NCBI RefSeq assembly: GCF_024300825.1
Contig: NZ_CP101323.1
Coordinates: 3,348,001-3,412,000, forward strand
Length of the DNA stretch: 64,000 bases
Source: Natronomonas gomsonensis
Lineage (GTDB): Archaea > Halobacteriota > Halobacteria > Halobacteriales > Haloarculaceae
Direction: 5' to 3'
The stretch's first letter is position 1. Each line of letters begins with the position of its first letter. Below the pieces are notes generated by a model. The model was not told the origin of the DNA and did not search any database. It saw nothing but the letters and a program-made list of their open reading frames with translations. The position numbers and the translations under genes were made by a program. This document shows, one piece after another, positions 7,490 through 16,622 of this stretch.

Positions 7490-7516
7490 TAATCCATCAC
7501 GGCCACGGTGGACTGT

Positions 7517-8392
7517 ATGACCTCGGCCGAGTCGCTGTTCGTCGCGATTGTCGGTGAGAACCCCGTGATGCAGGCGTTCGTCGGGGGACTCATAATCGCC
7601 GGGTTGAATCTGCTTGGTGCGGCGCTCGTCCTCGTCTGGCGGAACCCCTCCGAGCGGTCGCTGGATACGGCGCTCGGCTTCGCCGCCGGCGTCATGTTGG
7701 CGGCGAGTTTCACGAGTCTCATCATTCCCGGCATCGACTTCGCGTCGGAGGCGGCGTACAACCCCGTCACCCTCGGCGGGGTCGAGTTGGTCGGTATCGT
7801 TCCGGTTCTCGTCGGACTCATCGCCGGAACGCTGTTTCTCGACCGTGCCGACGCACTCGTTCCGCACGCCCACTACCTCGTCACCGGGGAGCGACGGGCC
7901 GACGCCGCCGATTCAGACACCGACGGTCTCCCCGATGTCGACGCACGCATCGCCTCCGTCGTGCTCTTCGTCCTCGCGATTACGCTGCACAACATGCCCG
8001 AAGGGTTGGCCGTCGGCGTCGGATTCGGCTCCGGCGATTTGGGCGGTGCCCTCGCGCTGATGGTCGCTATTGGCCTCCAGAACATCCCCGAGGGGTTGGC
8101 CGTCTCCATCGCGGCGCTGAACGCCGGCCTCGATAGTCGGTGGTACGCGGCGGTCGCCGGACTGCGGGCCGGCGTCGTCGAGATTCCGCTGGCCGTCTTC
8201 GGTGCCTTTGCCGTCCAAATCGCCAGTCCCCTTCTCCCCTACGCGATGGGATTTGCCGCCGGCGCGATGCTGTTCGTCATCTCCGACGAAATCATCCCCG
8301 AGACTCACACCCGCGGCAACGAACGCGTCGCCACGCTCGGAACGATGGCCGGTATCGTCGTGATGTTGACGCTCGACGTGGTGTTGGCCTGA
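7517..8392 (+). CDS. ZIP family metal transporter
   Basis: This 291-residue integral membrane protein is a ZIP family divalent metal importer (zinc and related metals) of the ZupT/GufA type. Eight hydrophobic segments are visible. The two signature helices are LHNMPEGLAVGVGFG and LQNIPEGLAVSIAALNAG, carrying the metal-ligand residues His, Asn, Glu and Pro of the family. The loop between helices 3 and 4 is short and acidic with one His-rich spot (PHAHYLV). The ATG at 7517 is preferred to a GTG at 7508. It is divergent from nadABC and has its own palindromic promoter. Confidence 0.9.
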   Translation: MTSAESLFVAIVGENPVMQAFVGGLIIAGLNLLGAALVLVWRNPSERSLDTALGFAAGVMLAASFTSLIIPGIDFASEAAYNPVTLGGVELVGIVPVLVGLIAGTLFLDRADALVPHAHYLVTGERRADAADSDTDGLPDVDARIASVVLFVLAITLHNMPEGLAVGVGFGSGDLGGALALMVAIGLQNIPEGLAVSIAALNAGLDSRWYAAVAGLRAGVVEIPLAVFGAFAVQIASPLLPYAMGFAAGAMLFVISDEIIPETHTRGNERVATLGTMAGIVVMLTLDVVLA

Positions 8393-11214: not shown

Positions 11215-11307
11215 GACGACGGATACGACGGGCCCCATCCGCACCCGTCTCGTCGTGCCGAACGGTCCCTAGTTTGATAGGAGTTCGAAAACGGGATACA
11301 CCCATCC

Positions 11308-14214
11308 TTGCTCAGGAATCGACAGCGAGCTCGGGGGGTTGGAATCGCTACACTCGCGGTGCTGCTCGTGGTTTCGGTTCTCACAGCCGGTGTCGCGGCG
11401 TCGACGGGGGCGGCCGCCGGGACCGCTTCGAGCGCCGAACCGACGGCCACGGCAGATATCGACGAGTCGTTACGTGACCGCACGGGGACGGTTCAAGCGG
11501 TCGTTCGGTTCCCGGCGGCCGATACCGCGGGCGTTTCGTCGACAGACCGTGTTGAGCGATTGCAACGCCACGCCGAACGCAGTCAGTCGCCCTTTCGGGC
11601 GTTCGCGGCCGACACGCCGGGGGTCGACGTCGAACGGTCGTTTTGGCTGACGAACGCCATGCTCGTCTCGGTCGATACGGAGACAACGCCACTGGAGACG
11701 CTGGCCGAGGTCGAGGGCGTCAGCCGAATTCACGAGAACTACGGCGGGAATCTTCAGGCGACGGGCGGCGAGACGACGGGAGCCTCGAACGACCACGTTC
11801 CACGGCCGAGACAATCGGACGAGGGACCGCCCGTCGCTCCCGGAATCGACCAAATAAGCGCACAGACGGCCTGGCAGTTCCACGACACCCGTGGCGAGGG
11901 CAGCGCCGTCGCGATTCTCGATACTGGGGTTGACCCCGAGGGTCACGCAGGTATCGCCGACTCGCTGTCTCGCGGCGGGTGGGCGGAGTTCCACCCACGG
12001 ACCGGCGAACGCGTCGAGAGCGAGCCATACGACCCGAAGGGCCACGGAACACGTCTCAGCGGCATCGTCGCGGGCGGACAGACTGATGAGGGAGTCGCCT
12101 ACGGCGTCGCTCCCGAGACCGCGCTGTATCACGGCAAGGTTGTCGGGGAGAGAGGGTTCTCCTTTGCATCGGTCACCGCCGGCATGGAGTGGGCCATCGA
12201 AAACGACGTGGATGTAGTGTCTCTGAGCCTCGGTCCGGTCAGATACGCCGACGCCTTCCTCGAACCGGTCGAGAACGCCCGCGGCGCCGGGGTCGTTGTC
12301 GTCGGCTCGATCGGCAATGCCGGTCGATACACGAGCGTCGGGCCGGGGAACCTCCCGACGGCTGTCGGCGTCGGCTCCGTCGACTCTGACGGCTCGGTTC
12401 CCGAGTGGTCGGGCGGCGAGGCAGTCGACACACAGCGGTATTGGGGAGAGAACGCGCCGTCTCAGTGGGGAGACAACTACACGGTGCCGGAGGTAACCGC
12501 GCCCGGTGTCGGCGTCACCGTCTCCCAGCCAGGCGGCGGATACGGGACCGGCGAGGGGTCGAGTTACGCGACGCCACACGTCGCTGGCGTGGCGGCGCTT
12601 GCGGCGTCGGCGACCGATGCCGAGATGGCTGAAATCGAATCCGCACTCGTCCAGACGTCGATACACCCCGACGCGCGTGAGCCGTTTTCGGTCGACCCTG
12701 GTCGTGACGACCGCCACGGCTCCGGGGCCGTCAACGCTGTCGCAACCGTCTCGCGGCTCCGGGCGAGCGAGACTGTCTCGGGGGTCGTCACGACGGCTGA
12801 CGGCGAACCACTCGAGGGCGCCCTCGTCGGGTCCGAAGCGGGCCCCCGGACCCGAACGGACGCCGACGGCCGGTACACGCTGGAACTCCCGCCGGGTGAA
12901 CAGCCGGTCGTCGCTCTCGGTGTCGGCTTCGACCCAACCGTCGAGACGCTTGACCCGGCGACGACCGACCAACAGTCATTCGAACTCACGTCCGGGGCCC
13001 CCGGTGCCAGAACGCTCCAACCGCTTGGTGATCGGGTCGACCCCGGACAACCGGCGGTGACGACCCTCGAAGTCGGGTCCGCGGAGTCGGTAACCGTCGA
13101 GGTCAACACACAGGGGTTGGTTCAACGGGACGCTCTCACGCTCCGTATCGACGGGGAGGCGGTGAGTTTCGGCGAGACGGTCGACCTTGAGCCCTCGGAG
13201 ACGCCCCGCCGACTCACGATAGAAATCGACACTGAAGAAGGAACGCCGCCGGGTTCCGTCGAACCAATGGTACGACTGGAGGGTGAAAGCGAGTCGCTCT
13301 CGGGCCGCATCGGGCGATTTTACATCCACACCGACCCGGTCCGTATCGGCCCCGATGTTCCGGTGGACATTCAAGAGCCGGTCGACGTTCTTGCGCCCGG
13401 AACGACCATCGTTCTCGAAGACGGGACCTACGAGGCCTCCGAGGCCGGCCCTGCGTCGCTCGTCCTCGACCGGCCGATTTCACTCGTCGCTGCCGAGGGG
13501 GCGAATCCGACGCTCGTTGCCTCGAGTGACGCCGAAAACGGCGTTCTCATCACCGCGAACGATGTCGAGATACGGGGGCTGGAGATAGACGGCGACGGTG
13601 CCGAGACGACCGTTCAGGTCGGTACGCAGGCGACCGGTCGGGAGACGGTCGCTCCCTCCGGTGTCACCGTCGCGGACAACCGACTGCTGGGCGGCACCGA
13701 CGGCCTCGTTACCTGGGGTGGTCCTGCGCTGTTGGTCGAACGCAATCGCGTCGCCGCCCAACGCGACGGCATCCGGGTCAGTGACCCACAGCGTTCGACC
13801 GTCCGTGACAACGTCATTCAGGGTGCCAACACAGGCATCCGAATCGAGGGGTCGGCGACGGATATCGCCGGGAACCGCATCTCCGGTGCCGAAACGGGGA
13901 TTCACATCGAGGTCCCGCTGGAGGCTCTCGAAGCGCTGGCCGTCGAGTTCGGCCCCATCGCTGGCAACGAAATCAGTGACTCGGCCGAAGGACTCCGTAT
14001 CGTTGGCGGCGTCCCGGAAGGGTCGGTCGGCGACAACACCTTCCGGAACGTCACGACCAACCGAGTTACCACAGGAAACGGGAGCGGCAGCGCCCCGACC
14101 GGCCCGGGCGGTACTGGCGATTCCGCACTCGGGGTCGCCCTCTATGCTGCGACGGGGGTGTCCGTCGCGTTGTTGTTCGTTCCGTACGGTATCCGACGAC
14201 TCAGGAGGCGATAA
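11308..14214 (+). CDS. Secreted subtilisin-like protease fused to NosD-like beta-helix, membrane-anchored
   Basis: The 968-residue product has a signal peptide (residues 1-33), an inhibitor-like propeptide region (about 55-150) and an S8 protease domain (about 175-490). The catalytic triad is intact: Asp205 in AILDTGVD, His246 in GHGTRLSG and Ser419 in GSSYATPHVAGVAAL, with oxyanion Asn337 in GNAG. A carboxypeptidase-regulatory-like domain (about 505-585), a beta-sandwich and a right-handed beta-helix with NosD/PbH1-type repeats (about 680-920) follow. The C-terminus has one membrane helix and RRLRRR. The start is a TTG, chosen because it gives a complete signal peptide. An ABC ATPase and permease follow at once, so the protein may act on what that transporter moves. 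The substrate is unknown. Confidence 0.85.
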   Translation: MLRNRQRARGVGIATLAVLLVVSVLTAGVAASTGAAAGTASSAEPTATADIDESLRDRTGTVQAVVRFPAADTAGVSSTDRVERLQRHAERSQSPFRAFAADTPGVDVERSFWLTNAMLVSVDTETTPLETLAEVEGVSRIHENYGGNLQATGGETTGASNDHVPRPRQSDEGPPVAPGIDQISAQTAWQFHDTRGEGSAVAILDTGVDPEGHAGIADSLSRGGWAEFHPRTGERVESEPYDPKGHGTRLSGIVAGGQTDEGVAYGVAPETALYHGKVVGERGFSFASVTAGMEWAIENDVDVVSLSLGPVRYADAFLEPVENARGAGVVVVGSIGNAGRYTSVGPGNLPTAVGVGSVDSDGSVPEWSGGEAVDTQRYWGENAPSQWGDNYTVPEVTAPGVGVTVSQPGGGYGTGEGSSYATPHVAGVAALAASATDAEMAEIESALVQTSIHPDAREPFSVDPGRDDRHGSGAVNAVATVSRLRASETVSGVVTTADGEPLEGALVGSEAGPRTRTDADGRYTLELPPGEQPVVALGVGFDPTVETLDPATTDQQSFELTSGAPGARTLQPLGDRVDPGQPAVTTLEVGSAESVTVEVNTQGLVQRDALTLRIDGEAVSFGETVDLEPSETPRRLTIEIDTEEGTPPGSVEPMVRLEGESESLSGRIGRFYIHTDPVRIGPDVPVDIQEPVDVLAPGTTIVLEDGTYEASEAGPASLVLDRPISLVAAEGANPTLVASSDAENGVLITANDVEIRGLEIDGDGAETTVQVGTQATGRETVAPSGVTVADNRLLGGTDGLVTWGGPALLVERNRVAAQRDGIRVSDPQRSTVRDNVIQGANTGIRIEGSATDIAGNRISGAETGIHIEVPLEALEALAVEFGPIAGNEISDSAEGLRIVGGVPEGSVGDNTFRNVTTNRVTTGNGSGSAPTGPGGTGDSALGVALYAATGVSVALLFVPYGIRRLRRR

Positions 14215-14215
14215 C

Positions 14216-15139
14216 ATGGCGATGATAGACACTACTGACCTGACGAAACGCTACGGCGACGTGACCGCAGTCGACGGTATCGACCTCACTGTCGAGGCCG
14301 GCAGTCTTCACGGCTTCGTCGGTCACAACGGGGCCGGGAAGTCGACAACGATGCAGATGCTCGTCGGCCTCGTCTCGCCGACGGAAGGGGAGGCCTACAT
14401 CGACGGCGAACCCGCAGGGTCGGCCGCAGCAACCGAAAAAATAGGCTATGCGCCCCAAGAGCCTGAGTTCTACGAGTCGATGTCCGGACGGGCCTACCTC
14501 GTCTACATGGGAAAACTGGCGGGGGTGTCGACGCCGGGTGAACGCGCCGAGGAACTACTGTCGTGGCTCGACCTCGCCGACGCCGCCGACCAGGCCATCG
14601 GGGGATACAGCGGCGGCATGCGCCGCAAACTCGGGATGGCGCAAGCGATGCTCGAATCCCCGGAGTTACTCGTTCTCGACGAACCGACGGCCACGCTCGA
14701 CCCCGAGGGTCGGGCGTCAATCATCGATGCTCTACAAGGGTTGACCGACGACGGAACGACGGTGTTTGTCAGCAGCCACGTCCTCGCGGAACTCGAGCAG
14801 TTCATCGACACCGTGACGATTCTACAGGGGGGTTCCATCGCCGCGTCGGGGCCCATCGACGAGGTGCTCTCCGACGTGGCGGCCGAGACGTACGTCGTCG
14901 ACGCCTCGGACAACCGCCAACTCGGGGAACTGCTGGAGGGCCACTCGACCGTCGAGCAGGTCCGGCACCGAGACGACGGCCGTTTGACCGTCGTCGCGAC
15001 GGACCCCCAGGCGTTCACCGTCGCGCTGCCAGAACTGCTCTACGAGGCGGGCCTCGGTCTCCGGTCGCTCCAACAGGAGGGTGGTCTCGAAGAGACGTTC
15101 CTCGACATCGTCAACGGAGCGGGTGAAGATGACGCGTAA
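14216..15139 (+). CDS. ABC transporter ATP-binding protein, NosF-like
   Basis: The 307-residue ATPase has Walker A GHNGAGKST (about 35-43), a Q-loop in YAPQEPEFY, signature YSGGMRRKLG, Walker B LLVLDEPTATLD and switch histidine in VSSHVLAE. A C-terminal domain of about 80 residues follows, as in ABC-2 and NosF-type ATPases. It would energise export or conformational coupling of the downstream permease. The ATG at 14216 lies one base after the protease stop, with AGGAGG at 14203-14208, an unusually good Shine-Dalgarno for this organism. The end overlaps the permease by 11 bp. The set forms one operon with the protease. Confidence 0.93.
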   Translation: MAMIDTTDLTKRYGDVTAVDGIDLTVEAGSLHGFVGHNGAGKSTTMQMLVGLVSPTEGEAYIDGEPAGSAAATEKIGYAPQEPEFYESMSGRAYLVYMGKLAGVSTPGERAEELLSWLDLADAADQAIGGYSGGMRRKLGMAQAMLESPELLVLDEPTATLDPEGRASIIDALQGLTDDGTTVFVSSHVLAELEQFIDTVTILQGGSIAASGPIDEVLSDVAAETYVVDASDNRQLGELLEGHSTVEQVRHRDDGRLTVVATDPQAFTVALPELLYEAGLGLRSLQQEGGLEETFLDIVNGAGEDDA

Positions 15140-16055
15140 GTCCATCACGATTCTTGGCAAGACCCTCGGGGACCTCTCGGACCCTCGGGTGCTGGCAGCG
15201 TACGCCGTGGTGTACATCGGCGTTCTCGGGTTTCTCGCCCTCGCGTTCGGACAAAATATCATCCCCGACGGTGGCGGCGACCTTCCGGTCGCCGAGCAGG
15301 GGGTCTACATGTTCGGTGCCTTCCTCGCGATGTCGCATCTCTGGGCGCTGGGTATCGGCCTGCTGCTGTTCGGGGCGGTTGCGGGGGCGAACACCCTCGC
15401 TCGTGAGGCCGAACGGGGGACGCTGCGTATCGTCCTCAGCAAGCAGGTCCGTCGCTGGGAGGTGTTGCTCGGCACCTTCGTCGGAATCACGCTGTTCGTC
15501 GGCTTGGTCGGCGTCGCCAACGCCCTCGTCGGTGCGGTGGCGCTGTTTTGGTTCTCCGACGTGAGTGCGGCGGCGCTGGAAGTCGGCGTCTTCGATGCGC
15601 TTTCCGGTACCGTCGCCTACGCGCTGTTCGTGGGAGGGTTCGTCGCCTCCCTCAGTCTCGCGCTGTCGGTGTTCACCAAGAACCGCCTCCAGACGGCACT
15701 CGGTCTCTTGGTCGTCCCGGCGCTGTACTTCGCACTCTCGGTCGCCCGCCTCTTCGGCCCGGAGTTCTACGAGGACAACGCGCTGTATCTCGCCGATATG
15801 TCCTATCATTTCGGGAATGCCTTCGTCGTGATACACGAGGCAATCGGCGGTGACCTTCCGGTGGAGGCACAGCAGGCACTCAGCATCTTCAGCGGCGTCT
15901 ACGACCTGCCATCGGGTGAAAATCAGGAGGCGTTACCGGAGTCGCTCGAACTGGCTGGCCACGTGGACCCGATGGTCTCCGTTTCCGTTCTGGTCGGTGT
16001 TGCCGCTGTTTCGTTCCTCGTTGCTCTCGTCGGGTTCCAGCGGACCGACCTCTGA
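15129..16055 (+). CDS. ABC-2 type permease, NosY-like
   Basis: The 308-residue membrane protein has about six hydrophobic segments. The arrangement GANTLAREAERGTLRIVLSKQVRRWEVLLG is the cytoplasmic ERxxGTL coupling loop of NosY and other ABC-2 permeases. A large extracytoplasmic segment (about 210-285) separates the last two helices. The ATG at 15129 overlaps the ATPase gene by 11 bp, supporting translational coupling. With a beta-helix protein, ATPase and permease the operon has the NosD-NosF-NosY layout, but no nitrous-oxide reductase gene is nearby and the beta-helix partner is fused to a protease. Transported substrate unknown. Confidence 0.88.
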   Translation: MTRKSITILGKTLGDLSDPRVLAAYAVVYIGVLGFLALAFGQNIIPDGGGDLPVAEQGVYMFGAFLAMSHLWALGIGLLLFGAVAGANTLAREAERGTLRIVLSKQVRRWEVLLGTFVGITLFVGLVGVANALVGAVALFWFSDVSAAALEVGVFDALSGTVAYALFVGGFVASLSLALSVFTKNRLQTALGLLVVPALYFALSVARLFGPEFYEDNALYLADMSYHFGNAFVVIHEAIGGDLPVEAQQALSIFSGVYDLPSGENQEALPESLELAGHVDPMVSVSVLVGVAAVSFLVALVGFQRTDL

Positions 16056-16115: not shown

Positions 16116-16622
16116 TTACACTCGGCGATAGACGCCGTTGGATTCGATAATATCGCCGCTCTGCCGGAGCTTCGTTAGCGCCGTCTCGACGTAGGACTCG
16201 GGGACGCCCTCGGCGGTGGCGTACTCGACGACTGCTTCGGTGGTCGGCTCCTCTAGCTCTGAGAGTGCGTCGAGGACGACCTGTTTACGACTCCGAGAGC
16301 GCTCCGTGCCACCTTCGGCGCGGTCGCCGGCCGCCGCCACCTCCTCGGCGTCCAGTCCCGAGGCGGTGAGATACTCCTCGTCATCGACGCCGACGCCGTC
16401 GATGTCGATTTCCTCGGGGTCGAGAAATTCGCCGTCGTCGGCGCGGTCGGCGAGCATCGAACTCCGGACGCGGGCGGCGGCCTCGGAGGTCTCGGTCTCG
16501 GCGAACTGCTTCAGTTTCTCGAACTGGTGGCGTTTTCGACAGCGGGGACACTGCGTCGTCTCGGGGTGCCCCTCGACGACCCACAGTGCCAGACACTCCT
16601 TGCACCCGACGACGGAGTACAT
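16116..16622 (-). CDS. DUF5817-type zinc-ribbon and winged-helix protein
   Basis: The 168-residue protein starts with a zinc ribbon, CKECLALW at residues 7-10 and CPRCRKR about 18 residues later, four cysteines as expected for one zinc. A long acidic linker follows. The last 60 residues (QVVLDALSELEEPTTEAVVEYA to the end) have the pattern of a winged helix-turn-helix. I take it as the haloarchaeal DUF5817 family. A role in transcription or RNA binding is plausible but not shown. It is divergent from the cupin gene with about 110 bp between them. Confidence 0.7.
   Translation of the reverse strand: MYSVVGCKECLALWVVEGHPETTQCPRCRKRHQFEKLKQFAETETSEAAARVRSSMLADRADDGEFLDPEEIDIDGVGVDDEEYLTASGLDAEEVAAAGDRAEGGTERSRSRKQVVLDALSELEEPTTEAVVEYATAEGVPESYVETALTKLRQSGDIIESNGVYRRV

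Follow-up and report, generated by a model that had tools for sequence, protein, structure and literature searches.

A three-gene operon in the haloarchaeon Natronomonas gomsonensis encodes a large secreted protease, an ABC ATPase and a NosY-like permease, and represents one form of a conserved module. By sequence comparison, the ATPase, the permease and a C-terminal membrane anchor are the constant parts of this module, and the ectodomain is swapped on them. The operon lies in a stretch of 64,000 nucleotides (contig NZ_CP101323.1, positions 3,348,001 to 3,412,000), hereafter the window. With slightly less than even confidence, we propose that the module belongs to an undescribed, ancient family of ABC machines present in haloarchaea, DPANN, Asgard archaea and at least one member of the Bacillota. 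Motor and tail would be fixed and heads swappable in this family, large propellers would be the older heads, and the haloarchaeal version with a captured subtilisin-beta-helix head would be an ATP-powered membrane protease. In the open-access literature, a search for subtilisin-NosD or propeller-NosFY systems of haloarchaea brought up no relevant paper.

Architecture of the protease and its operon

The three genes are tightly packed on the forward strand (Table 1). The ATPase gene starts 1 bp past the stop codon of the outer protein and overlaps the permease gene by 11 bp, exactly as described in the initial annotation. Pfam and motif reading assign the pair to the ABC-2 type, with an ATPase that carries all expected motifs and a permease of the ABC2_membrane group.

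Table 1. Features of the operon and its surroundings, in window coordinates
Feature	Position	Strand	Basis or remarks
Outer (ectodomain) protein, 968 aa, TTG start	11308..14214	+	Signal peptide, propeptide-like region, S8 protease, CarboxypepD_reg, beta-sandwich, beta-helix, C-terminal TM anchor
S8 subtilase domain, residues 196-459	11893..12684	+	Pfam PF00082 E 2.3e-36; alignment; codons checked
Catalytic residues D205, H246, S419; oxyanion N337	11920, 12043, 12562; 12316	+	Alignment, codons
CarboxypepD_reg domain, residues 489-561	12772..12990	+	PF13620 E 9.7e-11
Beta-sandwich (Ig-like) domain, residues 566-680	13003..13347	+	AlphaFold2 model, pLDDT about 80
Right-handed parallel beta-helix, residues 689-917	13372..14058	+	PF05048/PF13229; most blocks modelled at pLDDT about 70-90; Foldseek
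C-terminal membrane anchor (ALGVALYAATGVSVALLFVPYGIRRLRRR region)	14125..14211	+	Shared by every type of haloarchaeal ectodomain on the module
ABC ATPase, 307 aa	14216..15139	+	PF00005 E 5e-30; motifs; clade
ATPase motifs: Walker A, signature, Walker B, H-loop	14321, 14606, 14666, 14771	+	Sequence motifs
ABC2_membrane_2 permease, 308 aa, NosY-like fold, ATG start	15129..16055	+	PF12679 E 1e-16; model pLDDT 91; Foldseek
Large conserved permease loop YEDxxLYxxDVNYHxGN ahead of the last TM helix	starts 15768	+	Alignments
Presence/absence segment	11219..16113		blastn vs L207 (G750), L208 (G259)
Possible TATA-like element TTTGATA, about 30 nt 5' of the TTG start	11273..11279	+	By eye only

The outer protein has two hydrophobic segments, one N-terminal and one C-terminal. 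Its Peptidase_S8 domain contains the Asp-His-Ser triad and the oxyanion Asn of S8 subtilases (Pfam, alignment), and it matches subtilisin BPN' at 1e-23 (phmmer). The description as a secreted, membrane-anchored S8 protease with an intact triad is thus upheld, and we regard the head as a potentially active protease. To the domains listed in the initial annotation we add the CarboxypepD_reg domain and the beta-sandwich, both located ahead of the beta-helix.

The proposed fusion to a NosD/PbH1-like beta-helix stands as far as the fold is concerned. NosD and Beta_helix Pfam matches span residues 744-924, and the AlphaFold model, built on four sequences and confident only at residues 566-917, shows a beta-sandwich followed by a right-handed beta-helix. 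The protein is nevertheless not NosD proper, as it scores 53.4 bits against the NosD model TIGR04247 (cut-off 300), compared with 372.8 bits for the NosD encoded elsewhere in the same genome. The Foldseek matches of the beta-sandwich/beta-helix part are to GH28, GH55 and polysaccharide-lyase helices and are not specific to NosD. The beta-helix part contains no Met, no Cys and a single His. The terminal helix (residues 941-967) is modelled with low confidence. Since the model failed over residues 1-565 (S8 pLDDT mostly under 45), Foldseek matches to that region are meaningless, and the S8 assignment rests on the Pfam and phmmer matches rather than on the model.

Relation to the Nos system

The permease model (17 sequences) is of much higher quality (Table 1). 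Its ten best PDB matches are all NosY chains of NosDFY or NosFY entries (Foldseek, best E 2.4e-5), with TM-scores of 0.5-0.6 by query length and 17-20% identity, which identifies a NosY-like fold and not the Type VII permease fold. A search of the PDB by sequence with the permease profile returned only designed proteins, at E about 0.2.

The ATPase is a different matter from the NosF-like protein initially suggested. A tree of 86 ATPases places the window ATPase with its relatives in one clade and haloarchaeal NosF in another, each supported at 100/100. The former clade includes the ATPases associated with all head types, the one from Beduini (Bacillota) among them. The NosDFY-like reading of the operon was therefore half right: the permease is nearest to NosY in fold, but the ATPase lies outside the NosF clade and the beta-helix below the NosD cut-off. 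The best curated models for the window ATPase include drrA and a lantibiotic-protection ATPase, both general for the ATPase class. These matches carry no information, because the same two models also lead for the true NosF of this genome. PADLOC returned only general ATPase matches, and a plasmid search with the permease gave no match.

The same genome has a canonical nos locus encoding NosZ, NosD, NosF and NosY (L047, G000:C1:2592000-2606000), whose NosZ scores 725 bits (cut-off 625). A cupredoxin is found at C1:2602605, within the region of that locus. Inside the 64-kb window there is no match to the cupredoxin family PF00127 and no second NosD match, in agreement with the earlier remark that nosZ and cupredoxin genes are absent nearby; NosL was not found anywhere in the genome. 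Compared with NosDFY of nitrous-oxide reductase copper assembly (PDB 7o0y, 7o0z, 7znq, 7qba), the operon shares the order of outer beta-helix protein, ATPase and permease, as well as the permease fold. It differs in its outer protein, a protease fusion with a TM anchor, in the NosD score and the ATPase clade, in lacking nosZ, NosL and cupredoxin in the window, and in that heads of the module are swapped for propellers.

Distribution of the module and exchange of its heads

Few genomes encode an orthologue of the permease. Among 293 genomes of the order, 9 have a strong match (E below 1e-30), one of them being the genome of the window; the seven other genomes searched within the genus have none. 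In the species-level collection we found 28 matching loci, the last eight of them weak; the genome collections hold one genome per species. The head composed of S8, CarboxypepD_reg and beta-helix is present in six haloarchaeal loci, namely the window, L050/L039, L041, L042, L051 (Halobellus clavatus) and L060 (Halorubrum MAG). In each of the six, the two genes behind it encode the same ATPase (65-69% identity) and permease (44-52%).

Other loci carry propellers on the same module. Small propeller-like heads of about 550 aa, with only weak family matches, are encoded in L052/L040 and L054 (Halonotius). Large PQQ/FG-GAP propeller heads of about 1035-1134 aa occur in L043, L044, L056/L045 (Halorussus), L057 (Nanohaloarchaeota) and L059 (Aenigmatarchaeota), and in L053 (Salinibaculum) a large propeller is split over two frames. 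The heads of Lokiarchaeota are proteins of 1460-1770 aa with propeller matches, and Beduini has a propeller protein of 1053 aa. These observations do not sustain the idea that proteolysis is the core of the system, as the same ATPase, permease and anchor carry beta-propellers in other archaea.

Some loci appear altered. L058/L046 (Halapricum hydrolyticum) has a truncated ATPase and no outer protein, and L052/L040 (Halobacteriales SW_6_65_15) has its ATPase in two frames; decay or assembly error is possible in both. L055 also appears decayed or incomplete. In the propeller heads of L045, L059 and L072, the EMC1 N-terminal family and the FAM234 beta-propeller family match weakly, the latter in Lokiarchaeota as well; general PQQ-type repeats may be all that these matches reflect. 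No large head gene lies ahead of the weaker FY-like pairs L048, L191 and L194, nor of the FY-like pairs of Bacteroidota among the matches listed. Behind the L191 permease lies a gene for an Ig-type protein of 553 aa that has a TM helix at one end.

The S8 heads are not uniform. D, H, N and S are all intact in the window, L050 and L041, and L042, L051 and L060, which form one 100/100 clade, keep D, H and S and have lost the oxyanion Asn (alignment, tree). Strong proteolysis may therefore not be required in every member. The signals also vary: they are twin-arginine-like (RR.FL or similar) in L050, L041, L042, L051 and L060, and plain hydrophobic, without RR, in the window protein.

We compared the membrane anchors with a baseline of hydropathy-preserving shuffles. 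Seven propeller proteins from haloarchaea and nanohaloarchaea were aligned over their last 45 residues with the tails of S8-head proteins; the best z ranged from 7 to 15, and none of the 300 shuffles scored as well. In the same test, the tails of nine S8 proteins without ABC genes reached a best z below 3 against the S8-head anchors. The Aenigmatarchaeota tail is unlike the other anchors (z 1.4). The nine include L108 and L109, secreted haloarchaeal proteases that are the nearest S8-helix homologues without ABC genes. They share 44-50% identity over S8 and the domain order of the window protein, but their tail is of a different type and resembles, by eye, an archaeosortase tail. S8-helix proteins are thus not always neighbours of ABC genes. 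In contrast, all six of the S8-helix proteins found with the LYAAT-type anchor have ABC genes alongside. At the level of sequence, the anchor type tracks the ABC motor and not the head.

In a tree of ATPase and permease from 14 loci, the rows with S8 and small-propeller heads form a nested group (97/96). Its neighbour is a row with a large propeller, the head type of all remaining rows too. This pattern suggests that the large propeller is the older, likely ancestral form of the head, and two head changes suffice to explain the tree. The small-propeller pair falls within the S8 rows; a single S8 clade is still not rejected (p-AU 0.17).

The operon is missing from two sister species, G750 and G259. 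Their genomes lack the whole segment and have hmgA directly beside the gene at 16116 (blastn), with flanks that share about 95% (hmgA) and 93% (downstream) identity with the window. In base composition, the operon resembles its surroundings. Gain in the lineage of the window appears more likely than repeated loss.

A proposed motor with exchangeable heads

The NosDFY complex is an ABC machine whose action is directed at an outer partner. We propose, at about even confidence, that the three gene products form one complex, composed of a NosFY-like ABC motor and an anchored outer protein with swappable heads, and that the motor acts on the head or on its substrate outside the membrane. Two ATPase and two permease subunits would make up the motor, and the C-terminal membrane helix would keep the large outer protein beside it. 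The task of the motor would be work at the outer face of the membrane rather than solute uptake. Anchor and motor would remain constant among lineages, and the head, probably a multi-blade beta-propeller in origin, would here be a subtilisin with a beta-helix arm. The motor would most likely make surface proteins, or proteins attached to the membrane, available to the protease, or release the protease's activity.

Two known systems are thought of here as working in a comparable way. In E. coli, the ABC transporter YbbAP carries the extracytoplasmic hydrolase TesA, to which it is proposed to present membrane-derived substrates (PMC12646458). YbbAP-TesA and FtsEX with EnvC and its amidase are both ABC motors coupled to outer hydrolases (PMC12646458; PMC7668044). 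The likeness to YbbAP-TesA would lie only in the way of working, an ABC transporter acting with an extracytoplasmic hydrolase: its permease has the Type VII fold and its esterase is soluble, whereas the window encodes an ABC-2, NosY-like permease and an anchored protease. Similarly, complexes of the FtsEX-EnvC/PcsB type may share ATP-driven control of an extracytoplasmic hydrolase with our proposed system, but they belong to a different family, have another permease fold and control a cell-wall amidase.

The same data allow other readings. The outer protein may be a binding or sensing head with a weak or vestigial protease, and the ABC pair may transmit a signal or mechanical state instead of driving cleavage. 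Most heads are indeed non-enzymatic propellers and three of the six S8 heads lack the oxyanion Asn; the full set of D, H, N and S in the remaining three speaks against this reading, which we consider unlikely. It is quite unlikely that a peptide or small protein is exported by the ABC pair and then trimmed outside by the anchored S8 domain, in the manner of LanP with lantibiotics. Known systems do include S8 proteases that process exported peptides, and drrA and lantibiotic-protection models are among the best for the ATPase, although they carry no information, since they lead for the genome's true NosF as well. Against this reading, an unsystematic look beside the operon revealed no gene for a small peptide, the same ABC pair carries protease-free propellers in many lineages, and the oxyanion Asn is gone from one S8 sub-clade.

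The protease and the ABC pair may also be functionally unrelated neighbours on one transcript, since haloarchaeal S8-CarboxypepD_reg proteins are common and most lack ABC genes. The same gene order in six loci, a tail type that follows the ABC genes, and the presence or absence of the three genes as one segment make this very improbable. Finally, a copper-loading NosDFY system for a cuproenzyme, suggested by the permease fold and the weak NosD/beta-helix homology, is hardly credible and was rejected given the NosD score, the ATPase clade, the lack of linked nosZ, NosL or cupredoxin, the separate canonical nos locus, the Met- and Cys-free beta-helix with its one His, and the replacement of heads by propellers.

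ATP is absent outside the cytoplasm, and energy-driven proteolysis is therefore unusual there. If our proposal of a motor-head complex is true, coupling a protease to an ABC motor would offer one way to power it. The exchange of heads on a constant anchor and motor would also offer a direct route to distinguish the generic from the task-setting parts of NosFY-like ABC machines, and the module directs attention to a complex in Asgard archaea that is so far uncharacterised.

Two further genes in the neighbourhood were read from the genome. An ORF resembling ZIP-family metal transporters lies at window positions 7508-8392, 5' of hmgA (read from sequence only). About 2 kb past the window end, on the minus strand, a 1064-aa ORF has a split Peptidase_S8 match (L049, G000:C1:3413821-3415635).
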